Part shown: one piece after another, positions 23,994-38,542 of the stretch
Layout of the letters: the number at the start of each line of letters is the position of its first letter
Numbering within the stretch: the stretch's first letter is position 1
Assembly (NCBI RefSeq): GCF_963664075.1
Contig: NZ_OY760916.1
Coordinates: forward strand, 965,501-1,029,500
DNA: 64,000 nt
Reading direction: 5' to 3'
Origin: an uncultured Desulfobulbus sp.
GTDB taxonomy: Bacteria > Desulfobacterota > Desulfobulbia > Desulfobulbales > Desulfobulbaceae
Made by a program: the position numbers and the translations under genes
The notes under the pieces: generated by a model
The model's database searches: none
What the model was told of the DNA's origin: nothing
The model's input: only the letters and a program-made list of their open reading frames with translations

Positions 23994-24101
23994 CTGTTTG
24001 TTTCCTCTTGTTCCCTTTGTTCAATTTGCAGGCTCTATTCGAGCATCCTGCTGCATTTTCCCCTTGCCAAAACCGAGTAAACAGTGGCATGTTGTCACAT
24101 T

Positions 24102-24662
24102 ATGCATATCTCGCACAAAAAAATTATAGGGGAGTGCCCCGTAGATATTGTGGTGCTGGGGTGCGGTAATATTCTGCTTGGAGATGATGGGTTTGGCCCG
24201 GCGGTGGTTGCTCGCCTGGAGCAGGAGAAACTTTCCGAACGTGTTCAGGTACTGGATGTGGGCACCTCTGTGCGGGAATTGTTGCTGGATTATCTCATGG
24301 CGCCTGCATTGCGCCCCAGTCTGCTCTTTATCGTCGATGCCACCTATCAAGATCAGCGATCCCCCGGTGCGCTTGTGACCTGTCGCCCGGCTGAACTGCC
24401 GTGCTCGAAGGTACATGACTTTTCGCTGCATCAGTTCCCCACGGTCAATCTGTTGGTGGAACTCGAGCAGGAAACGGGTATTCGGGTCGAGCTGGTCTTG
24501 GCCCAAGCAAGCATCATACCTGAAGAAATAGCCCCCGGGCTGACGCCTGCCATGGAACACGCCACAGAGCTGGCCGTTAAGATGATACTTAAACAAATAA
24601 ACGAATATGTCACCCCTTTTTCCTCCGGCACAGTGGTTGCCTCTTCGGAGAATGTTTCATGA
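24102..24662 (+). CDS. Hydrogenase maturation endopeptidase (HycI/HyaD family)
   Basis: A 186-residue endopeptidase that removes the C-terminal tail of a [NiFe]-hydrogenase large subunit after nickel insertion. The signature VLGCGNILLGDDGFGP carries the conserved nickel-sensing acidic residue in GDDG. The second motif region is ATYQDQRSPGAL, and HDFSLHQ gives the usual histidine. The start is uncertain: ATG 24102 has no clear ribosome site, while AGGGGAG lies further in near 24130. It is the first gene of the hydrogenase operon and overlaps the next by 4 bases. The substrate is probably MvhA at 30601-32046. Confidence 0.9.
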   Translation: MHISHKKIIGECPVDIVVLGCGNILLGDDGFGPAVVARLEQEKLSERVQVLDVGTSVRELLLDYLMAPALRPSLLFIVDATYQDQRSPGALVTCRPAELPCSKVHDFSLHQFPTVNLLVELEQETGIRVELVLAQASIIPEEIAPGLTPAMEHATELAVKMILKQINEYVTPFSSGTVVASSENVS

Positions 24663-26131
24663 TTTATGAGGCCAAGGTCAATGATTTGGCAAGCGAGTTT
24701 GGTGTCCACCGCAACACTATTCGCAACTGGATCAATTCCGGTGTGCTTCCGGCCCAGGAAGGGCCTGGTCGACGGTACCTGATTCAGTATGAGGATTATA
24801 AACGGCTTTGCGACAAATATGGTCGCGAACCACGCATCTCCCCTGATCCGGGAGTCGCAGGTGAAGTGGTGCAGCCCGTCAACGAAAATGTCCCCAGGGC
24901 TGTTCTCCTCGAATCCAAAAAAAATCCATTTTACTCGGCTCCTAATCTGGCAGACATTTGCCTGACCTGTGGCTCATGTGCAGGAGCCTGCCCTATTTCG
25001 GGTGTCGACGATCTTGATCCGCGTAAGATTATTCGTATGGCTTTTTTTGGAATGGAAGAAGAGCTGGTCGAAAGCGACTGGCCCTGGAAGTGTACCATGT
25101 GCGGCAAATGCGAGGTGGTTTGCCCGATGAACGTGGAGATCGTTCAGCTCATTCGCCGTATTCGGGGACAACGCGATCGCGACAAAGTCCCGGTGGCCAT
25201 TCAGAAGGGGGTTATCACCTGTCTTGAGAAGGGCAATAATCTGGGCATTCCCAAGGATGATTTTCTCACGCTTATTAAAGACTTGGGGCAGGAGCTCGCA
25301 GATGACTGCTGCCCGGGGTTTGCAACCCCCATTGATGTGCGTGGAGCCCGGCTGCTGGTAACGGTGAACTCGAAACAGCCCTTTGCTGAACCGGAAAGTC
25401 TGACCTGGTGGTGGAAGATATTCTATGCTGCTGGCGAATCCTGGACCATCTCTTCCGAATATTGGGAAGGCGTCAACTGGGCCCTGCACTCCGGTGACTA
25501 CAGTGCCATGCGTACCATCGTCAAGCGCATTATCGATAACATTGAACGACTCAACTGCAAGGCTCTGCTGCTGCCTGAATGTGGTCATGCCTATTATGCG
25601 ACCCGTTACGCACTGGAACGTTGGTTTCCTGAGTCATTGCAGCAGTTTAAAATTTATACTGTCTTTGACCTTCTGCTGGAGTACGTTAACCAGCGGCGTA
25701 TTATTCTTGATCCCGCACGAAACACGAAGCTGGCCACCTTTCACGATTCCTGCAACTATGGGCGCAAATCCCTGAAAACCTTTGGGCAGGGGTATTTTGA
25801 CGAGGCTCGTACCCTGACCCGGGCCTGCTGTGCAAACTATGTGGACCTGATTCCAGACCGGGAAGAAAATTACTGCTGCGGTGCCGGTGGTGGTGCCTGG
25901 GCTAGCCCCTATGGAGCCGAGCGGGTTTTTCACGGGCGGATGAAGGCGCGGCAGATCAGCACCTCGGGCGCTAAAGTTGTGGTTACGGCCTGTCAGAACT
26001 GTCGTGATCAGCTTCAGGTCTCGTTAAAGCGTGAATTTAATTTAAACATCGACGTCTGCTTTTTGTGGGAGCTGGTGGCGAAATCCTTGGTAATGCCCAG
26101 GCGTATCGTAGGAGAGGTGGAGCATGGCTGA
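24659..26131 (+). CDS. HTH domain fused to HdrC-HdrB-like heterodisulfide reductase module
   Basis: A 490-residue fusion. Residues 5-50 are a MerR/excisionase-like helix-turn-helix (NDLASEFGVHRNTIRNWINS then GPGRRYLIQYEDYKRL). Residues 95-160 are an HdrC-like ferredoxin domain with two [4Fe-4S] sites: CLTCGSCAGACP (Cys101, 104, 107, 111) and CTMCGKCEVVCP (Cys145, 148, 151, 155). The rest is HdrB/HdrD-like: the first CCG domain keeps PECGHAYYATRYA but lacks the Cys-Cys pair, while the second is intact (HDSCNYGRK, YCCGAGGG, CQNC). The protein is expected to pass electrons between HdrA and a disulfide-type acceptor. A DNA-binding-type domain on such a subunit is unusual. Start and stop overlap both neighbours. 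Confidence 0.9.
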   Translation: MIYEAKVNDLASEFGVHRNTIRNWINSGVLPAQEGPGRRYLIQYEDYKRLCDKYGREPRISPDPGVAGEVVQPVNENVPRAVLLESKKNPFYSAPNLADICLTCGSCAGACPISGVDDLDPRKIIRMAFFGMEEELVESDWPWKCTMCGKCEVVCPMNVEIVQLIRRIRGQRDRDKVPVAIQKGVITCLEKGNNLGIPKDDFLTLIKDLGQELADDCCPGFATPIDVRGARLLVTVNSKQPFAEPESLTWWWKIFYAAGESWTISSEYWEGVNWALHSGDYSAMRTIVKRIIDNIERLNCKALLLPECGHAYYATRYALERWFPESLQQFKIYTVFDLLLEYVNQRRIILDPARNTKLATFHDSCNYGRKSLKTFGQGYFDEARTLTRACCANYVDLIPDREENYCCGAGGGAWASPYGAERVFHGRMKARQISTSGAKVVVTACQNCRDQLQVSLKREFNLNIDVCFLWELVAKSLVMPRRIVGEVEHG

Positions 26132-29100
26132 TCAATCCATGAATGGATCCGTGTTGGTGGTCGGGGGCGGTATCTCCGGAATGCAAGCCGCACTTGATTT
26201 GGCAGATTCCGGCTTTTTTGTGTACCTGGTGGAAAAATCAGGGGCCATCGGTGGTTCCATGCCCCAATTTAACAAGGTCTTTCCCACCAATGACTGCTCG
26301 ATGTGTATCATCGCGCCCAAGTTGGTTGAGTGTGGACGGCATCCCAATATCCGCATCATGACGCTGTCAACCGTGCAGGATGTTACCGGTACAGCAGGCA
26401 ATTTTACCGTCCGTGTGATCGAGTATCCCCGCTATGTGGACACGGATAAATGCATTGCCTGTGGTCAGTGCACCAGCGTTTGCCCTAAAAGCGTGGATGA
26501 TTCGTTCAACTCCAATATTGCCAAGCGTAAGGCGATTTATATCAAGTATCCCCAGGCTGTCCCCCTGAAATATCAGATTGATCCCAAATCTTGCTTGCAT
26601 CTTAAAAATCCAACCAAATGTGGAGCCTGCGCTGAAATTTGTCCCCCTGGGGCCATTGATTTCAACGACCGCGAGCGGGAACATATCATTCAGGTGGGCT
26701 CGGTGGTCATGGCCCTTGGTTTTCAGACCTTTGATCCGTCAAAATCTAAGATCTGGGGCTACGGCGTGTACCCCAATGTGATCACCTCGCTCCAGTTTGA
26801 ACGCTATCTTTCTCCAGATGGGCCCACCGACGGTCAGCTCTCGCGACCTTCGGATAAAAAACCGGTGAAAAAGGTGGCCTTTCTCCAGTGTATTGGCAGC
26901 CGAGATAAGAATCGGTGCAATAACGAGTACTGTTCCACCGTCTGCTGCATGTATGCCATTAAAGAGGCGATGACCATCAAGGAGAGTAATCCCGATCTCG
27001 AGGTGACCATCTTTTACATGGACATGCGCACTCCGGGCAAGGAGTTCGATCGCTATCTGGAACGGGCTAAAAATGAGTATGGGGTCCGTTTTATACGTTC
27101 CCGCATTCACGGGGTTGAGCCCAAGGGAACCAAGGGCGATTTGCGGCTGCACTACATTAATGGTCAAGGAAAGCAGGTCGAAGAGGTCGTTGATCTGGTC
27201 GTGCTCTCCGTTGGTTTGGAGACTCCAGAGTCCATGGTGCGACTGGCCGAACGTATTGGCATTCATATGACTCCGGATCGTTTTGCCTCCATCTCTGCCT
27301 TTATGCCGGTGCATACCTCAAAAAAAGGTGTCTATACCTGCGGAGCCTTTAATGGTCCGCGGGATATTCCCCAGTCAGTCACCGGGGGGTCGGCAGCGGC
27401 TGCCTCGGTTTCCGCACTGTTAAAATCGGTACGGCATACCCAGACACGCTCTCTTTTACCGCCGGTGGAGCAGGATGTGCGCGGTGAAGAGCCACGAATT
27501 GGTGTATTTGTCTGCCATTGCGGTACCAATATTGCCGGAGTGGTGGATGTGGAAGAGCTGGCTGACTATGCCGCCACACTGCCCCTGGTCGTGCATGTGG
27601 CCCGTAACCTCTTTACCTGTGCCCAGGATACTCAGGATCGTATTGTTCAAGAGATACGGGATAAGCGGCTCAACCGTATCGTAGTTGCCGCCTGTACACC
27701 GCGAACCCATGAGCCGCTGTTCCGTAAGACCCTGAAATCAGCTGGTATCAATGAGTATCTCATTGAGATGGCTAATATTCGCAACCAGAATTCCTGGGTC
27801 CATAATCAGGAGCCAGAGGTTGCCACTCTCAAGGCCAAAGATCTGGTGCGGATGGCCGTGGTCAAAGTGCAGACCCAGGTTGCCCGAAAACCGATCCGTA
27901 TTCCCATTGCCCCCTCGGTGCTGATTATCGGTGGCGGCGTGGCCGGAATGACCGCTGCGCTCAACCTCGCTGAACAGGGGTTTCAGGTCCATCTGGTAGA
28001 AAAAACCACCCAGTTAGGGGGGAATGCGCTCCACCTCTTTCAGACCTGGAACGGAGAGCATGTGCCCCGCTACATCCGTGATCTCAAAGAAAAGGTACAA
28101 CAGCATCATTTAATCGAGGTGGCCTATACCAGTACAGTCCTTTCGGTGGAGGGACATGTGGGCAACTTTGCAAGTACCATTCGTACCGGTTCCAGTCGTA
28201 AACGGGTGATCAATCACGGCGCGGTGATCATCACCACCGGCGCAAAACGGTATATCCCCGAGGAATTTGAATACGGTAAGATACCCAAGGTGGTAGCCTC
28301 GATCGAGTTTGACAAGTTGCACATGCACAACGAAACTCGGGTGGCCAACGGTAAGTCCTTTGTTTTTATTCAGTGTGTAGGCTCACGCAATGAAGAGCGG
28401 CCCTACTGCTCCAAATCCTGTTGCACCCACTCAATCCAGAGCGCGATTAAGCTGAAAAAAGAGGCACCTTCCCGGCAGATTTATATTCTCTACCGTGAGA
28501 TTCGAACCTATGGTCAGCGGGAGCGGATCTACAATCAGGCGCGCGAGTTGGGGATCGTTTTTATCAACTACGAGATGCATGGCCCGCCCAAGGTGAAAAA
28601 GCATGATAAGGGCGTGCTGGTCGAGGTCTGGGATCACGTCCTCCATCGTCCCCTGGAGATTAAGGCGGATGTGGTTATTCTGGCTGCGGCAACCCTGGCC
28701 AGCCCGGATGCGATGAACCTGGGCAATCTCTTTAAGATTCCGCTCAATAGTGATGGGTTTTTCCAGGAGGCGCATGTCAAACTGCGTCCGGTGGAATTCA
28801 ACGTGGATGGGGTTTTTGTTGCCGGTCTTGCCCACTATCCCAAACCCTTGGAAGAATCGATCTCCCAGGCCCTGGCGGCGGCCGCCAAGGCTGGTCGTCT
28901 GCTCTCACGGGAAGCGATTAACCTGGAGCCCAATACCGCCCTGGTTGATCCGGTGAACTGCGATGGCTGCGGACTCTGCATAGAAGTCTGTCCCTATCAG
29001 GCCATCACCCTGGTCGAATATGAAGATGAAGAGGGGACTCCTTTGAAGACGGTGCATATCGATCCCGTACTCTGTAAGGGCTGTGGCATTTGTCAGGGAA

Positions 29101-29204
29101 CCTGTCCCAAGCGGGGCGTAGATGTGGCTGGCTTTACCTATGCCCAGATAGAGGCGCAGATCGATGCAGCCCTGGAAGAGAGCGAGTTGGAGGAGGAATT
29201 ATGA
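26124..29204 (+). CDS. hdrA: Double-length HdrA-like flavin/iron-sulfur subunit
   Basis: A 1026-residue protein made of two HdrA-type units. Unit 1 has the FAD motif VVGGGISGM (residues 12-20), the PTNDCSMCIIAPKLVE segment typical of HdrA, two ferredoxin sites near residues 110 (CIACGQCTSVCPKS) and 167 (CGACAEICPP), and a CIGSRDKNRC...CC cluster region. A VCHCGTNIAGVVD domain links to unit 2 (FAD motif IIGGGVAGM near residue 597; FIQCVGSRNEERPYC). Two more [4Fe-4S] sites close the protein (CDGCGLCIEVCP, CKGCGICQGTCP). HdrA holds the bifurcating flavin that couples H2 oxidation to ferredoxin and heterodisulfide-type reduction. Unit 2 lacks its own early DCSMC segment. It overlaps its neighbours by 8 and 4 bases. 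Confidence 0.95.
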   Translation: MADQSMNGSVLVVGGGISGMQAALDLADSGFFVYLVEKSGAIGGSMPQFNKVFPTNDCSMCIIAPKLVECGRHPNIRIMTLSTVQDVTGTAGNFTVRVIEYPRYVDTDKCIACGQCTSVCPKSVDDSFNSNIAKRKAIYIKYPQAVPLKYQIDPKSCLHLKNPTKCGACAEICPPGAIDFNDREREHIIQVGSVVMALGFQTFDPSKSKIWGYGVYPNVITSLQFERYLSPDGPTDGQLSRPSDKKPVKKVAFLQCIGSRDKNRCNNEYCSTVCCMYAIKEAMTIKESNPDLEVTIFYMDMRTPGKEFDRYLERAKNEYGVRFIRSRIHGVEPKGTKGDLRLHYINGQGKQVEEVVDLVVLSVGLETPESMVRLAERIGIHMTPDRFASISAFMPVHTSKKGVYTCGAFNGPRDIPQSVTGGSAAAASVSALLKSVRHTQTRSLLPPVEQDVRGEEPRIGVFVCHCGTNIAGVVDVEELADYAATLPLVVHVARNLFTCAQDTQDRIVQEIRDKRLNRIVVAACTPRTHEPLFRKTLKSAGINEYLIEMANIRNQNSWVHNQEPEVATLKAKDLVRMAVVKVQTQVARKPIRIPIAPSVLIIGGGVAGMTAALNLAEQGFQVHLVEKTTQLGGNALHLFQTWNGEHVPRYIRDLKEKVQQHHLIEVAYTSTVLSVEGHVGNFASTIRTGSSRKRVINHGAVIITTGAKRYIPEEFEYGKIPKVVASIEFDKLHMHNETRVANGKSFVFIQCVGSRNEERPYCSKSCCTHSIQSAIKLKKEAPSRQIYILYREIRTYGQRERIYNQARELGIVFINYEMHGPPKVKKHDKGVLVEVWDHVLHRPLEIKADVVILAAATLASPDAMNLGNLFKIPLNSDGFFQEAHVKLRPVEFNVDGVFVAGLAHYPKPLEESISQALAAAAKAGRLLSREAINLEPNTALVDPVNCDGCGLCIEVCPYQAITLVEYEDEEGTPLKTVHIDPVLCKGCGICQGTCPKRGVDVAGFTYAQIEAQIDAALEESELEEEL

Positions 29205-29635
29205 ACACAACCCCCAAAATAATCGCCTTTTGCTGTAACTGGTGTTCCTACGCTGCGGCTGATCTTGCCGGTATTTCCAGGCTGCAGTACCCCGGGTCGG
29301 TGCGGATTATTCGTGTGATGTGCTCGGGGATGGTTCATCCTGAGATGGTGCTGCATGCCCTGGACAAGGGGGCAGAAGGAGTGATGATCATTGGCTGTCA
29401 TCTGGGTGAGTGCCATTACATCAACGGCAACGAGATGGCCCTGGCCAGGGCCGAGGTGATCACCGATACTCTGGAAGATATGGGCTATGAGAGTGAGCGG
29501 TTTCAGATTACCTGGGTTTCCTCGGCTGAACCTGAGCGTCTGGCAGAGGCCTTTCGTGCCTTTTGCGGGCGTCTGGCCATTCTGCGTGGTGAACTGGCTA
29601 GCCTCTCCGAGTCCAAGAAGGGGACTCGGTCTTGA
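29201..29635 (+). CDS. mvhD: MvhD-like electron-transfer subunit
   Basis: A 144-residue [2Fe-2S] protein that connects the Mvh hydrogenase to HdrA. The cluster ligands are in AFCCNWCSYAAADLAG, VMCSGMVHPEM and GCHLGECHY. In some archaea and Desulfobacterota one of these positions is selenocysteine; here all are cysteine. The start is ATG 29201, with GGAGGAGG upstream and 4-base overlap with hdrA. An earlier in-frame start would add unrelated residues. It is followed by mvhG with overlapping stop and start. Confidence 0.95.
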   Translation: MNTTPKIIAFCCNWCSYAAADLAGISRLQYPGSVRIIRVMCSGMVHPEMVLHALDKGAEGVMIIGCHLGECHYINGNEMALARAEVITDTLEDMGYESERFQITWVSSAEPERLAEAFRAFCGRLAILRGELASLSESKKGTRS

Positions 29636-30546
29636 GTCTAGCCAGACTCAGCTTTGAGTGGCTTCATGCCTGTTGTGGTTGTGAAGTCTCGTTACTTGAT
29701 GCGGGAGAAGATTTCCTTGCCCTCGTCAATCAGGTAGAGATTGTCCACTGCCCCTTGCTGCTGGATAATAAATATGAGCAGGAGGAGGGGGGGGGGCTGT
29801 GTTTGCCCCAGGCGGATATCGGCATTGTTTCCGGTGGGGTTGCCTCGGAAGAAGAGCTTGCGTTGGTCAAGGCCATGCGGGCCAGCTGTACGAGCCTGGT
29901 TGCCCTGGGGACCTGTGCCACCCATGGCGGTATTCCTGCCATGCGCAATCAATGGACCTCCCAGGAAACCTTACAGACCGTCTATGCCTATGGCAGTGAT
30001 GAGCAAGCCTTGATTCCAGCGGACATCTCCCAGCCCCTGGATCGGGTCTACAGTGTGGATGAAAAGGTCAAGGTAGACTGGCTCTTGCCAGGTTGCCCGC
30101 CTGCCTCTGATGCCATCGTTGGATTTTTGACCAAGCTGGTGGCTGGTACACCCGGTAAAACAGCCGCCAAGAGCGTTTGCGAGACCTGCCCGACCCAGAG
30201 GGGCGGCAAAGCACAGGGGGGGGCTGGCAGATTTCTTGAGAATGCCGCCGGGGATGCTCAGGCTCCGCCCAGCGAGATGGTTTGTCTGTTGGAGCAGGGG
30301 ATTCTCTGTATGGGGCCGGTGACCGCTGGTGGTTGTGGTGGCAAAGAGGCACCGCTTTGTCTGCGTGCCCGTGTCCCCTGTCGAGGATGTTATGGGCCGG
30401 TGCGGGCGGGCTGTAATCCACTCTTGGATATGCTGGGGGCACTTGCCAGTAACGGTATTGATCACCGGTCCATGATAGATCGAAAATCACTGCTGCGTTT
30501 CAGCGGAGCCCACGGCCTGCTCAAACCACTGCGTAAACGCCGTTAA
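29632..30546 (+). CDS. mvhG: Group 3c [NiFe]-hydrogenase small subunit
   Basis: A 304-residue small subunit of the F420-non-reducing (methyl viologen-reducing) hydrogenase family. The proximal-cluster motif is LHACCGCEVSLLD; VALGTCATHGGIPA and LLPGCPPASDAIVGFL supply the other proximal ligands. C-terminal cysteines (ILCMGPVTAGGCG, CRGCYGPVRAGCNP) bind the medial and distal clusters. There is no Tat signal, so it is cytoplasmic. The start is TTG at 29632, overlapping the mvhD stop. Confidence 0.95.
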   Translation: MSLARLSFEWLHACCGCEVSLLDAGEDFLALVNQVEIVHCPLLLDNKYEQEEGGGLCLPQADIGIVSGGVASEEELALVKAMRASCTSLVALGTCATHGGIPAMRNQWTSQETLQTVYAYGSDEQALIPADISQPLDRVYSVDEKVKVDWLLPGCPPASDAIVGFLTKLVAGTPGKTAAKSVCETCPTQRGGKAQGGAGRFLENAAGDAQAPPSEMVCLLEQGILCMGPVTAGGCGGKEAPLCLRARVPCRGCYGPVRAGCNPLLDMLGALASNGIDHRSMIDRKSLLRFSGAHGLLKPLRKRR

Positions 30547-30600
30547 AGGGGAACGTTGTGCAGCTGTACGTTAAAAAAAGCAATCCGCCAAGGTAAACAC

Positions 30601-32046
30601 ATGGGCCAAGAGATTTCCATACATCCTGTCACTCGTATCGAGGGACACGCTCGCATAGATCTCCGTCTGGACGAATTCGGTCAGGTGAGTGATGCCCAGG
30701 TTGCTATTTCTGCCCTGCGGGGATTTGAACAGTTCGTCATTGGTCGCCCCGCCGAGGAGATTCCGCGTATTGTTACTCGCATCTGTGGGATTTGTCCCTG
30801 GATGCACCACCTGGCCGCGGTGAAAGCCATTGATGGCTGTTTTGGTGCGGAGCCGACCCGCAGCGGCCATCAGCTTCGTGAACTCTGCCAGATTCTTGCG
30901 CATATACACGATAAGATTTTGCATTTTTTCTTTCTTGCGGCGCCTGATTTTGTCCTTGATCCCCAAGAAGACCTCTCGGTGCGCAACATCATGGGGCTGG
31001 TACGTCAGGAACCCGAGCTGGCAGGCCGGGTTGTGCGTATGCGCCAGTTGGCGCAACAGATGCTCGCTCGTTTTGCAGGCAAGGCGATTCATCCAGTGGC
31101 CGCGGTTGTTGGTGGCTTCTCCTGCGCCATGCAGGAAGAAGTGCGGCAATCCCTGCTCGCCGATGCCCGCGAGCTGCTTGATTTTGCCAGCTACGCCATG
31201 GATTTTGCTAAAAAACAGGCCTTTAACCGGTTCAGTCAAGAGTTTGATGGGCTGGGTGACATCACCACAGGTTTTATGGGGACTGTCGACAGGCAGGGGC
31301 GGTTGCGACTTTATGATGGTCAGCTGCGTCTGATGGCAGCTGATGGAGGCTATGTCGATTTTCAGGCCTGCGATTACCAGCAGTACCTGGCCGAGCATGT
31401 GGAACCCTGGTCCTCGGCCAAGATGGTCTATGCTAAATCTTGGGGAGAGGGGTTTTCTCTTCATCCTGAACAGCCTACTGGCATTTACCGGGTCAATACG
31501 CTGGCGCGACTCAATGTCTGTGATGCCATGGCTACCCCCCGGGCACAGCAGGAGCTGGAGGAGTTTCGCGCTCGTTTTGGGCGACCAGTCCAGGCCACGC
31601 TCCTCTATCACTGGGCGCGACTGGTGGAGCTGGTGTATGCCTGCGAACGCAGCGTTGAGCTGCTGGAAGAGCACGAGATCACCGACCCTAATGTGCGAAA
31701 CGTTGTAGAGCCGGGGGCAGGACGCGGTATTGGCCATGTTGAGGCGCCTCGCGGTACCCTGATCCATGAGTATGCCACCGATGAGCAGGGATGTATCACC
31801 CAGGCAAACCTGATTGTGGGAACAACCCATAATATCGCCCCCATGAATCTGAGTGTGCAGCAGGCGGCGGCCTCGTTGATCAGTAATGGTCAGGTCGACG
31901 AGGGGATTCTCAATAAAATTGAGATGGCAGTCAGGGCCTATGACCCGTGAATTTCCTGTGCCACGCACCGCCTGGATGGCGGGCTCCCTCTGACGTTGCA
32001 TATAGTTGACCATCGTGGAAAAACGATCCGTCGTCTACACCACTAA
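30601..32046 (+). CDS. mvhA: Group 3c [NiFeSe]-hydrogenase large subunit, selenoprotein read through TGA
   Basis: Catalytic subunit of the Mvh hydrogenase. The N-terminal nickel motif is RICGICPWMHH (L1). A conventional reading stops at the TGA at 31948-31950 directly after DP, and would lack the C-terminal nickel motif DPCxxCxxH. Reading through the TGA gives D-P-U-I-S-C-A-T-H-R, an exact fit with selenocysteine (residue 450) replacing the first cysteine. The frame continues for 31 more residues to TAA at 32044-32046. The tail after His (RLDGGLPL onward) is the peptide normally cut off by the maturation protease, encoded first in this operon. A SECIS-like hairpin follows the TGA at the right distance. 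The full product is 481 residues before processing. The start is ATG 30601, with AAGG upstream. No sel genes are in the window. Confidence 0.93.
31968..31982 (+). promoter_or_regulatory. Candidate bacterial SECIS hairpin for selenocysteine insertion
   Basis: CCGCC (31968-31972), loop TGGAT, GGCGG (31978-31982). The loop starts 23 bases after the TGA and has GG at its 5' part, as in bacterial SECIS loops read by SelB. It lies inside the coding frame, as bacterial SECIS elements do. Only the apical stem is certain; flanking pairing was not modelled. Confidence 0.65.
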
Positions 32047-32186: not shown

Positions 32187-32441
32187 ATGAATGCCAACAA
32201 TGACATCCATCAACGTAAAGTCGTCCGGGTTGAAGCGCCAAACTGTGCCTGCGGTTTTGTTGGCCATATGACCGCCGATGAGCTGAAGCAGCGTGCGGCC
32301 CACGATGACATGGATCTATCCTGCCCTGTCTGCGGCCTGATTCATCTCAGTCGTGAAGAGATAGAAGACCTGGAAAAACAAAAGGTCGTCAACTCAAAAC
32401 GCTACAGGGAAATAATGCGTCAGGCGATAGCGGATACCTAA
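32187..32441 (+). CDS. Small zinc-ribbon-like protein of unknown function
   Basis: An 84-residue protein with two cysteine pairs, CACG (in NCACGFVGH) and CPVCG (in LSCPVCGLIHLS), spaced like a zinc ribbon, followed by a charged helical tail (EEIEDLEKQKVVNSKRY). I recognise no named family. It lies between mvhA and hypF on the same strand, 140 bases after the true mvhA stop. The start is taken as ATG 32187; the ribosome site is weak and a TTG two codons upstream is possible. A hydrogenase-related role is only a guess from position. Confidence 0.7.
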   Translation: MNANNDIHQRKVVRVEAPNCACGFVGHMTADELKQRAAHDDMDLSCPVCGLIHLSREEIEDLEKQKVVNSKRYREIMRQAIADT

Positions 32442-32685: not shown

Positions 32686-35007
32686 ATGAAGCATCCCCCG
32701 TCTTCGGTGCTTTCTGAAACCACAGCTCTGCGGGTTACTGTGCGTGGCATTGTGCAAGGAGTGGGATTTCGCCCCTTTGTTTATCGGCTTGCCCATGCCT
32801 TACAACTGATCGGGACGGTTATCAACGACAGTGATGGGGTTGAAATTATCTTGAACGGAGAGCCCCAGGTTGTAGAGGATTTTCTTCATCGCCTGCAGGT
32901 CGAGGCCCCCGTTGCTGCCCGTATTACTGAGCTGAAAACGGAAGCGATACAGGCCAAGATGCCAGCCGAGGGGTTTGCGATCCTTCCCAGCCGCTCATCC
33001 AGTCGTCCTTCGACCCAGATTGCACCGGATATGTCTATCTGTCCGGATTGCATGAAGGAAATTATGGATCCGCAGGATCGGCATTACCGCTACCCCTTTA
33101 CCAACTGCACCAACTGCGGCCCCCGGTTTTCCATTGTCAAGCGTGTGCCCTATGATCGGCCCAATACCTCCATGCAGGCTTTCACCATGTGCGAGCAGTG
33201 CAGCCGGGAATATCATGATCCCCTGGACCGACGATTTCACGCCCAGCCTAACGCCTGCCCGCAGTGTGGCCCTCAGCTCAGCTGGCACGATAACGAGGGA
33301 CACCCCCTGCCGGGTGACTGCCTGACCAATTGCGCACAGGCCCTGCAACAGGGGAAGTTAGTCGCTATAAAAGGACTGGGGGGCTTTCATCTCGCCGTTG
33401 ATGGAACAAGTGAAGAGGCTGTGGCCTTGTTGCGCAGACGCAAGCACCGTCCAGCAAAGCCCTTGGCTATTATGGTGCGAGATCTTCAAACAGCCCGAGC
33501 CTTTTGCCGCATCAGTGAGCAGGAGGCCGCGCTGTTGCTTTCACCCGAGCACCCGATAGTGCTGGTAGAGCGACTCAAAACCACGCCGCTTGCCGCATCG
33601 GTTGCACCGGGACTGGAAAAAATCGGCCTCATGCTGCCGTACACACCGTTGCATGCCCTGCTGCTCAGTGAGCCCGAGGTGCCGCAGGTGCTGGTCATGA
33701 CCAGCGGCAACAGGGGCGGTGAGCCGATCTGCACGGACAATGACGAGGCGCTACAGCGTTTGGCAGGCCTGGCGGATTTTTTTCTGTTCCATAACCGCGA
33801 AATTGTCACCCGGGTCGATGATTCGGTGGCACGGATTATGGACGGGAAAGTGCGTTTGCTTCGCCGTGGCCGCGGATATTCACCGGTTCCGATTTTGCTT
33901 AATGAACCCACAGGTGATATCCTTGCCTGTGGCGGAGAGATGAAAAACGTCTTTTGTATTGTGCGTAACCAGGAAGCCTACCTCTCGCAGCACATTGGTG
34001 AACTGGTCAATACACAGACCTTTGATTTTTTCAGAGAGAGCGTTGAGCACCTGCAGGATGTGCTTGAGTTGGTCCCACATCAGGTGAGCGTTGATCTGCA
34101 TCCGGATTATCTCTCCAGTCGTTATGGACGAGGCCGCAGTGAGGCGCTGTGCAACGTTCAGCACCACCACGCCCACCTGGCCGCAGTGCTTGCCGAGCAG
34201 CAGCTCAGTGGTCCGGTTCTTGGTCTGGTGCTCGATGGTACCGGCTACGGTCCGGATGGGACCATTTTTGGGGGAGAGATCTACCAGGCAAACCGGAAAG
34301 AGTATACCCGCCTTGGGCATTTGGCCACCCTGTCATTGCCCGGAGGCGATCGGGCGGCGCGGGAGCCCTGGCGAATGGCCATGTCGCTGCTGTATACCTG
34401 CCTGGGAGAGGAGGGGCTTGTGGATCTGCGACTCCCTCCTGCCTTGAAGGGCATTGATCCTGGGAAGAAAAATCTCCTTGCCCAGATGCTGAGTAAACAG
34501 CTCAACTGCCCAGCCAGCTCAAGCTGTGGCCGTTTATTTGACGGGGTTTCGGCCTTGCTCGGGCTCTGCCAGGACAGTCAATACGAAGGGCAGGCGGCCA
34601 TGCTTCTGGAGCAGCAGGCCCTTGGAGCTGATGATCGTGCGACTCTTAATCGCTATCTTCCGCAGATAGACAGGGAAAATGATCAGCTTGTGCTTGCCGT
34701 GGATGGTTTGGTAGCCGGATTGCTTTCCGATATACGAGATGATGTTTCGCTTTCGGTAATGGCCCGCGCCTTCCACCATTGGCTGGCTGCTGGGCTTATA
34801 GAGGTGCTTGCGGAATTGCGGCAGAAAACCGGCCTGAATCAGGTTGTCCTTGCCGGTGGCTGCATGCAGAATATGTTGTTGTTTGAGCGGCTCAGCAGTG
34901 GCCTGCGAGACCAGGGATTTGTGGTCTATGCAGGTGAGCTGGTGCCGATGAATGATGGTGGCCTTGCCCTTGGGCAGGCCTATATAGGAGGTGTTCCATG
35001 TGTTTAG
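32686..35007 (+). CDS. hypF: Carbamoyltransferase HypF
   Basis: HypF makes the carbamoyl group that becomes the cyanide ligands of the [NiFe] site. The 773 residues are the normal length. In order: an acylphosphatase domain (VRGIVQGVGFRPFVYRLA, residues about 15-105), two zinc fingers (CPDCMKEI through TNCGPRF; CEQCSREY through CPQCGP, about 115-195), a YrdC-like domain (about 205-385; KGLGGFHLAVD), and a Kae1-like domain (about 400-770) with metal-binding VQHHHAHLAAVLAE. It hands the carbamoyl group to HypE. The ribosome site is AGGAAAAG. hypC overlaps its end by 10 bases. Confidence 0.97.
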   Translation: MKHPPSSVLSETTALRVTVRGIVQGVGFRPFVYRLAHALQLIGTVINDSDGVEIILNGEPQVVEDFLHRLQVEAPVAARITELKTEAIQAKMPAEGFAILPSRSSSRPSTQIAPDMSICPDCMKEIMDPQDRHYRYPFTNCTNCGPRFSIVKRVPYDRPNTSMQAFTMCEQCSREYHDPLDRRFHAQPNACPQCGPQLSWHDNEGHPLPGDCLTNCAQALQQGKLVAIKGLGGFHLAVDGTSEEAVALLRRRKHRPAKPLAIMVRDLQTARAFCRISEQEAALLLSPEHPIVLVERLKTTPLAASVAPGLEKIGLMLPYTPLHALLLSEPEVPQVLVMTSGNRGGEPICTDNDEALQRLAGLADFFLFHNREIVTRVDDSVARIMDGKVRLLRRGRGYSPVPILLNEPTGDILACGGEMKNVFCIVRNQEAYLSQHIGELVNTQTFDFFRESVEHLQDVLELVPHQVSVDLHPDYLSSRYGRGRSEALCNVQHHHAHLAAVLAEQQLSGPVLGLVLDGTGYGPDGTIFGGEIYQANRKEYTRLGHLATLSLPGGDRAAREPWRMAMSLLYTCLGEEGLVDLRLPPALKGIDPGKKNLLAQMLSKQLNCPASSSCGRLFDGVSALLGLCQDSQYEGQAAMLLEQQALGADDRATLNRYLPQIDRENDQLVLAVDGLVAGLLSDIRDDVSLSVMARAFHHWLAAGLIEVLAELRQKTGLNQVVLAGGCMQNMLLFERLSSGLRDQGFVVYAGELVPMNDGGLALGQAYIGGVPCV

Positions 35008-35276
35008 CCATTCCCATGCAGGTCGTTGAGCTGCGCGGCGGCAGTGATGAGTTGCTTGACCCCCAAGTGGCCATGGTTGAAAGCGACGGAGTGCGCAAAG
35101 AAATCCGTCTGGAAATGGTGGATCGGGTTCCCGAAGTGGGGGACTACGTGATCATTCACGCCGGGTTTGCCATTCGTTCGCTCTCTGAAGAAGAGGCTGA
35201 GATCAATCTTAAGCTGATGCGCCAGATGGCCGAGGCTCTGGAAAAAGAGGGACGCCTGCCTGGAGCACCGGAATGA
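34998..35276 (+). CDS. hypC: HypC/HybG family hydrogenase chaperone
   Basis: A 92-residue chaperone that carries the Fe(CN)2CO unit with HypD and binds the large subunit. The invariant N-terminal MCLAIPMQV provides Cys2, the essential iron ligand. The remainder (VRKEIRLEMVDR, VGDYVIIHAGFAI) is typical. It overlaps hypF by 10 bases and hypD by 4 bases. Confidence 0.97.
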   Translation: MCLAIPMQVVELRGGSDELLDPQVAMVESDGVRKEIRLEMVDRVPEVGDYVIIHAGFAIRSLSEEEAEINLKLMRQMAEALEKEGRLPGAPE

Positions 35277-36361
35277 AATGTGCCGATGAGTTCAGATCCA
35301 GGGAAATTACCGCGCCCCTGGTCGAGGAGATCAGGCGCACGCTGACAAAGCCCCTGCGGATTATGGAAGTCTGTGGAACCCACACCATGTCGATTTTTCG
35401 CCATGGCATCCGTTCGTTGCTTCCTGAGGGAATCATTCTGCTTTCAGGTCCAGGTTGCCCGGTCTGTGTCACTCCGGCCGATCATATCGATGCCTTTCTT
35501 GCTGCGGCCAAAAAGCCCGAAGTCACCATTGCCACCTTTGGTGATCTGATCAGGGTACCTGGCAGTGAGGGCTCGCTTGCCACCGCACGAGCAGAGGGGG
35601 CGAAGGTAGAAATCGTCTATTCGCCCATGGATGCTCTGGTCCTTGCTCAAAAAGAACCGGAGCGAACGGTGCTTTTTCCTGCCATTGGATTTGAGACTAC
35701 TGTGCCCACCATTGCCGCAACCATTCTTCAAGCAGAGCGCTTGGGCATTGAAAATTTCGTGATCATCGCTGCCTGTAAAACCATGCCACAGGCTCTGGAC
35801 ACCCTGCTTTCCGATGAGGAACTCAGAATCGACGGCTTGCTTTGTCCCGGCCATGTGAGTGCTATTATCGGCAGTGACGCCTACAAGCCCTTTGCCGAGC
35901 GCCATAACCTGGCCTGTGCCGTGGCTGGATTTGAGCCCGCTGACATTCTTGCTGGCTTACTGAGTTTGATTCGTCAGCTGGCAGAGGGCAATCCCCGTGT
36001 GGAAAATTGCTATACCCGTGCGGTGACCGCCGAGGGGAATCGCAATGCCCAAAAGCTCATTGATCAGATCTTTGAGCCTGCCGACAGTCCCTGGCGGGGG
36101 CTGGGCACGATCCCCGGGAGTGGGCTGGTGTTGCGGCCCCAATATCAGCGTTATGACGCGGTGGCACGCTTAGGCCTCAGTGTGCAGCCCGCTCCTGAAC
36201 CCAAGGGGTGCCGCTGTGGTGATATCCTCAAGGGAAGCCTGCTGCCTCCGGACTGCCCTCTGTATGGAAAGGCCTGTACCCCCCTGAAACCTGTTGGCCC
36301 CTGTATGGTTTCAAATGAAGGCACCTGTGCGGCATATTACCGATACAGCGGCCAGAAGTAA
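35273..36361 (+). CDS. hypD: Hydrogenase iron-cofactor scaffold HypD
   Basis: A 362-residue [4Fe-4S] protein on which, together with HypC, the Fe(CN)2CO group is built. Characteristic motifs are MEVCGTHTMSIFRHGI, SGPGCPVCVTP and FPAIGFETTVPT. The C-terminal cluster ligands lie in CRCGDILKG, DCPLYGKACTP and the closing GPCMVSNEGTCAAYY. It starts inside the hypC stop (ATGA). Confidence 0.97.
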   Translation: MKCADEFRSREITAPLVEEIRRTLTKPLRIMEVCGTHTMSIFRHGIRSLLPEGIILLSGPGCPVCVTPADHIDAFLAAAKKPEVTIATFGDLIRVPGSEGSLATARAEGAKVEIVYSPMDALVLAQKEPERTVLFPAIGFETTVPTIAATILQAERLGIENFVIIAACKTMPQALDTLLSDEELRIDGLLCPGHVSAIIGSDAYKPFAERHNLACAVAGFEPADILAGLLSLIRQLAEGNPRVENCYTRAVTAEGNRNAQKLIDQIFEPADSPWRGLGTIPGSGLVLRPQYQRYDAVARLGLSVQPAPEPKGCRCGDILKGSLLPPDCPLYGKACTPLKPVGPCMVSNEGTCAAYYRYSGQK

Positions 36362-36406
36362 GTAATGCGAACAAGCGGTTAGTACTCTTTTTACAGTAAG
36401 GATCCC

Positions 36407-37423
36407 ATGAAAGCAGACTCGATTATCAGTCTTGACCACGGCAGTGGCGGACTTGCCAGCCAGAACCTGATCAGTGGTCTCTTCCTCAGGTATCTGCGTT
36501 CTCCGCAGCTGCATGACCTGGAAGACTGCGCAATACTTGGCGAGTATTCCGGACGTATTGCCTTTTCCACAGATAGTTATGTAGTTGACCCGCTCTTTTT
36601 TCCAGGGGGGGATATTGGAAAACTGGCAGTGCACGGCACCATTAATGACCTGGCAATGCGTGGTGCCCGCCCCATTGCATTGAGTCTGGCTTTAATTATT
36701 GAAGAGGGATTTGCCTACGCAGATCTCGAACGGGTGGTCGCCTCCATCGCCACCTGTTCAGAAGAGTCTGGCGTGGCTGTTGTGACCGGGGATACCAAGG
36801 TGGTCCCTCGGGGGAAGGTAGATAAAATTTTTGTCAATACCTCGGGTATCGGCATTGCCTCCCATCGTCACAACATCTCGGGAACCAAGGCCGAACCCGG
36901 AGATGCGGTTATCATTTCCGGTACCCTGGCGGATCATGGTATCACCATCATGAGTGCCCAGGCAGGCATTGCCATTGACGGTGATATCAGAAGCGATACC
37001 CAAGCCCTGCATCGTCTTGTTGCCACTCTGCTTGAAGGCAATACCGGTGTGGTCCATGTTCTGCGTGATCCTACCCGTGGAGGCCTGGCAACCACCCTCT
37101 GTGAAATTGCCCGCTCATCGGGTGTGGATATCACCCTGGAAGAAGAACGTTTACCGATCCGTGGTTCTGTCAACACCGCCTGTGAAATGATTGGGCTTGA
37201 TCCGCTTTACCTGGCCAATGAAGGCAAAATGATAGTCATCTGTGACCGTGACGGTGCCGAGGACGTGCTCCAGCTGATGCGACGTACGCCCGAAGGCCGC
37301 GATGCCGCCCTTATTGGCTGGGTGGGAGAGCGAGGTGAGGGGCGGGTCAGCCTGACCACACGTATCGGTGGTTCTCGTTTGCTGGAGCCGTTGACCGGGC
37401 AGCCTCTGCCCCGCATCTGTTAA
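36407..37423 (+). CDS. hypE: Carbamoyl dehydratase HypE
   Basis: A 338-residue PurM/AIR-synthase-like ATPase that converts the carbamoyl group on its C-terminal cysteine to thiocyanate. The opening SIISLDHGSGGLASQNLI, the STDSYVVDPLFFPGGDIG segment and the C-terminal end PRIC with its invariant last cysteine are all present. AAGGA precedes the ATG; the gap to hypD is 45 bases. Confidence 0.97.
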   Translation: MKADSIISLDHGSGGLASQNLISGLFLRYLRSPQLHDLEDCAILGEYSGRIAFSTDSYVVDPLFFPGGDIGKLAVHGTINDLAMRGARPIALSLALIIEEGFAYADLERVVASIATCSEESGVAVVTGDTKVVPRGKVDKIFVNTSGIGIASHRHNISGTKAEPGDAVIISGTLADHGITIMSAQAGIAIDGDIRSDTQALHRLVATLLEGNTGVVHVLRDPTRGGLATTLCEIARSSGVDITLEEERLPIRGSVNTACEMIGLDPLYLANEGKMIVICDRDGAEDVLQLMRRTPEGRDAALIGWVGERGEGRVSLTTRIGGSRLLEPLTGQPLPRIC

Positions 37424-37440
37424 TTCAAGGAGTCCCTGTC

Positions 37441-37827
37441 ATGCACGAATTATCGCTCGCGCAAAGTCTGCTTGACCAACTCGTAACCCTCGCCAGAGAG
37501 CACAATGCTGAACATGTGACCCGTCTCTCTGTGACCATCGGTCCATTTTCGGGGATCGTTCGCGACAGCTTTGAGTTTGGTTTTAATATCCTCAAAGACG
37601 CGCAGCCCCTCACGAAAGATGCGGTTATGGTAGTGGAGACCCCTGATCCGGTCTATACCTGTCTGGATTGCAACAAGGTCTCAGTTATTCCCTTTGCGCA
37701 ACCCGGTGAGGCAACTGAAATGAATCTTGGTGGCGGCTATCCCAAAAAGTGTCCCTGGTGCTGCCAAAACAGGCTTTCCCCCAAAGGGGGAACCGAACTT
37801 ATTTTGAATCAAGTAGAAATGGAGTAG
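37441..37827 (+). CDS. hypA: Nickel-insertion protein HypA
   Basis: A 128-residue zinc protein that delivers nickel. It begins with the invariant MHE nickel site, and has two CxxC zinc pairs, CLDC and CPWC (the latter in KKCPWCCQN). It lies 17 bases after hypE and directly before hypB, its usual partner. Confidence 0.96.
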   Translation: MHELSLAQSLLDQLVTLAREHNAEHVTRLSVTIGPFSGIVRDSFEFGFNILKDAQPLTKDAVMVVETPDPVYTCLDCNKVSVIPFAQPGEATEMNLGGGYPKKCPWCCQNRLSPKGGTELILNQVEME

Positions 37828-37831
37828 ACAC

Positions 37832-38542
37832 ATGTGTGATACCTGCGGCTGTCAATTGCACGAACACCACCAGCACGACACCAAAGTCGTTGAGGTCAAT
37901 AAAAGCCTGCTCGAGGCGAACCAGAAACAGGCTCATTCCAATCGGCACCACATTGAGTCCATGGGGGCGCTGGCAATCAACATGATTTCCAGCCCCGGCT
38001 CTGGAAAGACCACGTTGCTTGAGCGGACCATCGAGGCCTTAAAAGACACGGTCAAAATCGGTGTAATCGAGGGGGATATTGAAACCGAGCGGGACGCAGA
38101 CCGGATTCGTGCCAAAGGTATTCCAGCGGTACAGCTGACCACCGGCGGAGCCTGTCATCTGGATGCTCCCATGGTCCATGGTGGCTTGCATGTCTTGGAG
38201 CATTTTGCAAAAGGAGAAGGGTTTGATCTCATCTTCATCGAGAACGTAGGAAATCTGGTCTGCCCTTCCACCTTTGACCTGGGCGAGCATCGACGGATTA
38301 TCCTGCTCTCCGTTCCGGAAGGCTCAGACAAACCAGCCAAGTATCCCACCACCTTTCGTGGAGCTGATCTGGTCTTGATCACCAAGATGGATTTACTGCC
38401 CCATTTTGATTTTTCCGTGGAAGAAGCGAAAAAAGAGACCCTGACCCTGAAACCCGATGTGCCGATTATTGAGCTTTCCTCGACAACCGGTGACGGCTTT
38501 GAGCAGTGGATTGACTATTTGAAGCAGATGCTGAAGAAATAA
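37832..38542 (+). CDS. hypB: Nickel-binding GTPase HypB
   Basis: A 236-residue SIMIBI-class GTPase that drives nickel insertion. The N-terminal MCDTCGC is the high-affinity nickel site; a short His run (HEHHQH) follows and adds metal-binding capacity. The P-loop is SSPGSGKTT, followed by GDIETERDADRI and the IFIENVGNLVCP metal/nucleotide switch region, and TKMDLL for guanine recognition. It closes the hypFCDEAB set. Confidence 0.97.
   Translation: MCDTCGCQLHEHHQHDTKVVEVNKSLLEANQKQAHSNRHHIESMGALAINMISSPGSGKTTLLERTIEALKDTVKIGVIEGDIETERDADRIRAKGIPAVQLTTGGACHLDAPMVHGGLHVLEHFAKGEGFDLIFIENVGNLVCPSTFDLGEHRRIILLSVPEGSDKPAKYPTTFRGADLVLITKMDLLPHFDFSVEEAKKETLTLKPDVPIIELSSTTGDGFEQWIDYLKQMLKK

Follow-up and report, generated by a model that had tools for sequence, protein, structure and literature searches.

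Bacterial SECIS elements are hairpins just past the UGA whose loop has a conserved G near its start, and the periplasmic [NiFeSe] hydrogenase HysAB (PDB: 2wpn, 5jsu) carries selenocysteine (Sec) at the first Cys of the DPCxxCxxH motif. In archaea the SECIS is located in the 3' UTR (PMC11227280). A glpC-hdrA-frhD-frhG-frhA operon with four Sec genes was reported from Syntrophobacter fumaroxidans and Desulfotalea psychrophila by Zhang et al. 2006 (PMC1794560), who also proposed transfer between archaea and Deltaproteobacteria. A 2026 review (PMC13188914) places MvhA, VhuA and VhuU among the Sec families common to bacteria and archaea, and the Sec proteins listed for a marine deltaproteobacterium include F420-reducing and methyl-viologen-reducing hydrogenases, their subunits unnamed there (PMC8318568). 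Likewise, MvhA2DG of Desulfobacterium autotrophicum HRM2 has been called selenocysteine-containing, in a paper that already draws the comparison with Vhu and Vhc (PMC2702500), and Mvh is described in Ca. Desulfobulbus rimicarensis, where the accessible part of the source ties Sec only to formate dehydrogenase (PMC7117923).

Here we analyze a 64,000-nucleotide stretch of DNA from an uncultured Desulfobulbus (hereafter the window), in which a maturation protease gene is followed in order by genes for a GlpC/HdrD-like protein, a double HdrA, MvhD, MvhG and MvhA, and then by hyp genes. The relevant features, all on the + strand, are:

24084-24662, +: hydrogenase maturation protease, start uncertain (TIGR00072, 105.6 bits; cut-off 47.45)
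24659-26131, +: iron-sulfur protein resembling GlpC/HdrD, helix-turn-helix at its N-terminus; Cys308 at a site with TGA in 42/51 relatives (profiles, column scan)
26124-29204, +: double HdrA, a single chain comprising two flavoprotein-type halves; Cys61 at a site with TGA in 43/54 relatives (profiles, column scan)
29201-29635, +: MvhD/FrhD (PF02662, 168 bits); Cys66 where 46/66 relatives have TGA (column scan)
29632-30546, +: MvhG, small subunit; no column with TGA in at least two relatives (profiles, column scan)
30601-32046, +: mvhA/frhA-type hydrogenase large subunit with predicted Sec450, 481 residues (frame; VhuA and NiFeSe_Hases profiles)
30778-30795, +: L1 nickel motif RICGIC (read off the sequence)
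31948-31950, +: UGA as predicted selenocysteine, first metal ligand in DPUxxCxxH (frame and conservation)
31968-31982, +: predicted SECIS apical hairpin, arms 31968-31972 and 31978-31982, loop UGGAU at 31973-31977 (pairing, covariation, fold)
31969-32043, +: C-terminal extension of 25 residues after the last His, predicted substrate of the maturation protease (frame; likeness to [NiFeSe] chains)
32187-32441, +: Cys-rich protein of 84 residues, possible further operon member (position in relatives)
32686-38542, +: hypF, hypD, hypE, a likely hypA, and hypB, for hydrogenase maturation (profile search; hypA by eye)

The first-pass annotation had proposed that the large subunit, read in the ordinary way, breaks off at DP, and that an in-frame TGA restores its nickel-binding end. 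Its reading of the sequence holds throughout: the RICGIC motif is present, the table-11 ORF runs to VRAYDP and is ended by the TGA at 31948-31950, and with this codon taken as one residue (450 of 481, counting from the ATG at 30601) the frame continues as DPUISCATH-RLDGGLPLTLHIVDHRGKTIRRLHH up to the TAA at 32044-32046. A TTG at 30556 is a possible alternative start, and the matches of many relatives open at the residue encoded at 30601. The place of the Sec codon is also fixed by sequence matches to chains of solved structure. The product scores 128 bits against Pfam NiFeSe_Hases (cut-off 25.8) and 432 bits against the NCBIfam VhuA model, short of the cut-off of 800; since this is an equivalog model for the archaeal protein, we claim membership in the wider Mvh family and not VhuA itself. 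Both RxCGxC and DPCxxCxxH, the latter with Sec for the first Cys, occur in the product, and the MvhD and MvhG genes adjoin. The assignment to group 3c rests on nearness to VhuA/MvhA. Of the earlier suggestion that Sec in a bacterial group 3c enzyme deserves attention, the Sec reading stands, with the class label resting on that nearness, and the newness does not, as Sec genes of the MvhA kind are already known in related bacteria (PMC1794560, PMC13188914). That the enzyme might be faster or more oxygen-tolerant is the other weaker part of that suggestion.

If the codon is translated as Sec, the genome, a single contig of 4.775 Mb, should encode the machinery, and the absence of all sel genes had been named in advance as evidence to the contrary. 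Searches recovered selA (609 bits, cut-off 268), selB (387 bits, cut-off 242) and SelD (368 bits, cut-off 125), the last with an in-frame TGA of its own within AAGUAAKLG, together with tRNA-Sec. The tRNA-Sec genes are two and separate, both with the anticodon TCA (UCA), at C1:4455489-4455582 and C1:1233089-1233183 (70 and 60 bits).

Across the relatives, TGA occupies the homologous codon in 72 of the 73 named loci (three of the 72, L090, L091 and L094, being partial or frameshifted), the exception being a Chloroflexi MAG (L086) with TGT. An ordinary stop accompanied by a separate C-terminal subunit, the other outcome named beforehand as contrary, is seen in none of the 73, where 72 combine TGA with a fused tail and one has Cys. 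An order-wide search of 257 genomes (a class-wide search covered equally many, the same ones as far as listed) found an in-frame TGA in 86 of 88 among the matches listed at 61% identity or better, window included, with the position of the TGA confirmed for the fetched rows; the remaining two stop short of the codon. Some of these matches were counted with a second in-frame stop, which in L115 and L123 is the terminal TGA. A draw of 395 genomes from the phylum gave 50 with a match at E 1e-140 or better and an in-frame TGA in 46 of 53 match rows, its position again confirmed for the fetched rows; in one of the 46 (G392, locus L160) a Cys-type motif comes first and the TGA simply terminates the gene. 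Seven rows are without TGA: G405, G494 and G631:C145 have Cys, G260 has Cys and a short end, and G293, G388 and G438 are without the nickel motif. The two sets overlap, some loci of the phylum draw coming from the same genomes as named loci.

Two of the phylum-draw sequences, L157 (G260) and L160, are Cys-type MvhA proteins without any C-terminal extension, one ending in CATM and the other in CATH before the stop. The three relatives of family f52 without the C-terminal nickel motif (L156, L158 and L159, from G438, G293 and G388 respectively) end in AYNP, AYNPSFQD and AYAP; L158 has RICGIS instead of RICGIC, which L156 retains, and DP[CU]xxC was not found in the 3 to 6.5 kb fetched. These proteins have the appearance of large subunits in which nickel has been lost. 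Another f52 genome (G328) keeps the in-frame TGA.

The hairpin downstream of the TGA (CCGCC-TGGAT-GGCGG) had been noted as a 5-bp stem beginning at the 18th base past the TGA with a GG-containing loop from the 23rd, and both positions are right. A 63-nt segment starting at the TGA folds unremarkably (z -0.63; 54 of 200 shuffles equally good), whereas a 24-nt apical piece reaches -13.1 kcal/mol (z -3.28; 0 of 200 shuffles); the signal is in the 15-nt apical hairpin and its covariation. A search for an Rfam family in this region returned a single chance hit, and no family fits. From each of 94 rows (the window, 73 named loci and 20 from the phylum search) we took the 66 nt that begin at the TGA, and 91 rows passed a motif filter; it excluded L086 (Cys) and L140 and L148 (Val after Sec), the latter two having TGA and all five pairs. 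Across 87 distinct sequences the five stem pairs are formed without exception (435 of 435 cells), while sliding the stem partner by 1-3 bases leaves only 87 to 351 of the 435 paired, and the loop is UGGAU or UGGAC in 91/91 rows.

This constraint reaches into the choice of synonymous codons: within the hairpin Arg is CGY in 86/86 cases versus 1122/2635 upstream in the same genes, the following Gly is GGY in 91/91 versus 2164/3288, and Leu is CTG in 91/91 versus 1495/3435. Moreover, two pairs have been altered on both sides. In five rows CAC (His for Arg) goes with GGT, turning a G-C pair into A-U, with at least three events on the tree, and in five other rows CAT goes with GAY, turning C-G into U-A, with at least one, giving at least four compensatory events in all. 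None of 2000 shuffles reached the pairing seen or as many as 10 two-sided cells, a figure which, like the Fisher values, overstates the case because the rows share ancestry and certain genomes are entered twice; the tree counts are safer, yet come from one quick tree. Together, the frozen codons and two-sided changes make it look as if the RNA at least partly dictates the RLDGG string of the tail. Among Cys homologues, L163 forms one of the five pairs, L161, L162 and the genome's own paralogue two each, and L086 and L160 still four each, so that the Sec/Cys contrast in pairing is one of few rows. With its close downstream stem and UGGAU/UGGAC loop the element fits the bacterial rule, and by its conservation it behaves as a SECIS.

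The last His codon supplies, with its third base, the first base of the hairpin, and all the other hairpin bases encode the C-terminal extension, which ranges from 24 to 45 residues in length with a median of 25 (71 named rows). Judged by its substitution pattern, this tail is evolving as protein: pN/pS in frame 0 is 0.39 and 0.29 in two clades, while the remaining frames give 0.84 to 6.4. The frame-0 values exceed those upstream (0.39 versus 0.27; 0.29 versus 0.11), indicating that the tail is only loosely constrained. The deposited [NiFeSe] chains 2wpn, 6ruc and 6z8m stop at the equivalent last His, others being longer, and by analogy the tail is likely to be cleaved after His456.

The presence of the Sec machinery, the TGA in 72/73 loci, the covariation of the hairpin, the frozen codons, the protein-like tail and the TGA columns described below lead us to read the TGA at 31948 as the Sec codon of a full-length [NiFeSe] Mvh-type large subunit, and we place the probability of this explanation, taken whole, at about 0.97. 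Were the TGA instead an ordinary stop, the subunit would end at DP and be either inactive or decaying, or else be completed by a separate VhuU-like subunit. The table-11 reading does stop at the TGA, and the f52 relatives L156, L158 and L159, which end at or within four residues of the same point, indicate that loss of the C-terminus is possible in the family. However, a plain stop would hardly be TGA, and never TAA or TAG, in 72 of 73 named loci, nor be followed by a tail conserved as protein and a hairpin with compensatory changes, and the three + strand frames, scanned across the whole window, hold no DP[CU][IML]SCATH besides the mvhA site; we regard this reading as very improbable, the least probable of those considered. 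Scarcely more credible is read-through of the TGA as some other residue by a near-cognate tRNA without Sec. We found no point in its favor, and the Sec machinery and conserved SECIS speak against it, as do the homologues without TGA, which carry a Cys codon (TGT in L086, L162 and L163; TGC in L161). Furthermore, TGA ends mvhA itself in many relatives (e.g. L023 and L039), and hence the codon has not simply been reassigned.

On the selenocysteine reading, SelB with tRNA-Sec(UCA) would bind the mRNA hairpin at 31968-31982 and insert Sec450 where the C-terminal nickel motif would otherwise have its first Cys, yielding a full-length cytoplasmic [NiFeSe] large subunit. The maturation protease would then remove the 25-residue tail after the last His, including the residues encoded by the SECIS. 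Electrons could pass between H2 and an Hdr-type complex through MvhG, MvhD, the double HdrA and the GlpC/HdrD-like partner, with flavin-based bifurcation probable from the behavior of the family. The actual insertion of Sec, the ligation of nickel, the cleavage and the electron route are steps that we infer. Standard gene reading drops the catalytic end of such a hydrogenase, and the H2 metabolism of these sulfate reducers is hence easily under-annotated.

The fate of Sec elsewhere in the operon was followed with an unaided scan of every aligned column in the 73 loci for TGA in at least two loci. One such column emerged in each of GlpC (42/51), HdrA (43/54), MvhD (46/66) and MvhA (71/72), and none in MvhG or the maturation protease, and the scan thereby recovered the published four-Sec operon without prior input. 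The window has Cys at GlpC 308, HdrA 61 and MvhD 66. All four sites could be scored in 50 of the 73 loci: 36 have Sec throughout, nine have it in MvhA only and five lack it in MvhD only. On a tree of 97 rows, built by a quick search with the paralogue as root and SH-aLRT as its sole support measure, the nine MvhA-only loci, the window and four partly scored rows make up a clade of 14 rows (SH-aLRT 95), which includes Desulfobulbus rhabdoformis, D. elongatus and D. alkaliphilus and has Cys at the GlpC, HdrA and MvhD sites wherever scored. Some MAGs called Desulfobulbus (L030, L045 and L083) fall outside it with Sec kept; L030, the Ca. Desulfobulbus rimicarensis locus, has TGA at all four sites. 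The sister row of the clade, L083, has Cys in MvhD and Sec in GlpC and HdrA, L081 has Cys in MvhD with its other two sites unscored, and Cys in MvhD only recurs in a separate group (L069, L074, L075 and L093). The intermediate state of L083 suggests loss in steps, and the clade appears to have lost the three Secs of GlpC, HdrA and MvhD stepwise while keeping that of the nickel ligand. In single folds inspected by eye, covering every Cys row and one Sec row in five, the Cys copies of glpC, hdrA and mvhD do not visibly show the hairpins of their Sec counterparts.

The direction of these changes is itself an inference from the tree, and Cys might instead be the older state at the three sites in the clade, Sec having been gained elsewhere. 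Cys rows near the root (L086 in MvhD and MvhA, L087 in HdrA) leave the root state not firmly Sec. Against this, all-Sec rows are spread across the whole phylum, the sister row L083 is intermediate, with Cys in the MvhD of L081 too, and the fewest tree changes are one for GlpC (51 rows), two for HdrA (54) and three for MvhD (66); we therefore consider an ancestral Cys rather improbable. For MvhA the tree needs two changes. As to why the Sec of mvhA would outlast those of its three partners, one speculative account, which we hold with little confidence, is that a SECIS almost wholly within a propeptide that is cut off costs the mature enzyme nothing, while those of glpC, hdrA and mvhD constrain the finished proteins, and that the second Hdr-Mvh operon of the genome, with its Cys-type MvhA, would serve as a selenium-free stand-in, as Vhc does for Vhu in methanococci. 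Our literature search, with subscription journals mostly and supplements wholly outside it, found no report of stepwise Sec loss in this operon or of Sec in Desulfobulbus MvhA. The operon family offers a natural series with four, three and one Sec, in which the worth of each can be compared.

A second Hdr-Mvh operon lies in the same genome (locus L125, C1:4148000-4162000; genes at C1:4.1527-4.1590 Mb), in the order HdrA, HdrB, MvhG and MvhA, with one unsearched gene between HdrA and HdrB and a second between HdrB and MvhG; by position these two could be HdrC and MvhD. Its MvhA is of the Cys type, 40% identical to the Sec-type product, with the tail DLCLACATH, so that one genome holds a natural Sec/Cys pair of Hdr-linked hydrogenases.

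Of the genes around mvhA, the double HdrA pointed out in the first-pass annotation was borne out by a profile search, which shows two halves in one chain. The start of the GlpC-like gene (24659-24800) matches HTH_17 (33 bits, cut-off 27), here fused to the iron-sulfur protein, and 48 of 51 loci can be aligned across its first 46 columns; such a redox protein might be able to bind DNA. The 84-residue Cys-rich protein matched no Pfam or NCBIfam family at 0.001. Of the 69 loci in which 500 nt or more follow mvhA, 62 have it there, and of all 73 loci 65 hold it, making it a candidate for an unnamed hydrogenase partner. The likely hypA (37441-37827), with no NCBIfam match at 1e-20, was named by eye.

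Comparison with the known systems places the locus as follows. HysAB shares the Sec position and has deposited names that say selenocysteine-containing, several of its chains stopping at the last His (5jsu and 5jsh were deposited longer), but it is periplasmic and remote from the window MvhA (120-125 bits versus 363-383 for the three best chains). The methanogen VhuA/VhuU (NCBIfam NF041785, NF041786) belongs to the same family with Sec at the same position, and the VhuU model matches the window MvhA over residues 447-473, Sec included (40 bits, below the cut-off of 70); methanogens, however, place Sec on the separate small subunit VhuU, whereas the window has one chain with a SECIS directly after the UGA. 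D. autotrophicum MvhA2DG-HdrA1 is, like the window enzyme, a cytoplasmic Mvh hydrogenase of a sulfate reducer adjoining hdrA, but the Sec subunits listed in the accessible part of that report are of the HdrA and MvhD types (PMC2702500), which in the window have Cys, Sec being in MvhA. The operon of Zhang et al. 2006 shares gene content and order, the doubled hdrA and Sec in the hydrogenase alpha subunit, and going by gene order and name its FrhA is probably of the same family as the window MvhA; there GlpC, HdrA and FrhD also carry Sec, where the window has Cys in all three (PMC1794560), and the window operon is thus at most a one-Sec form of the operon that they described.
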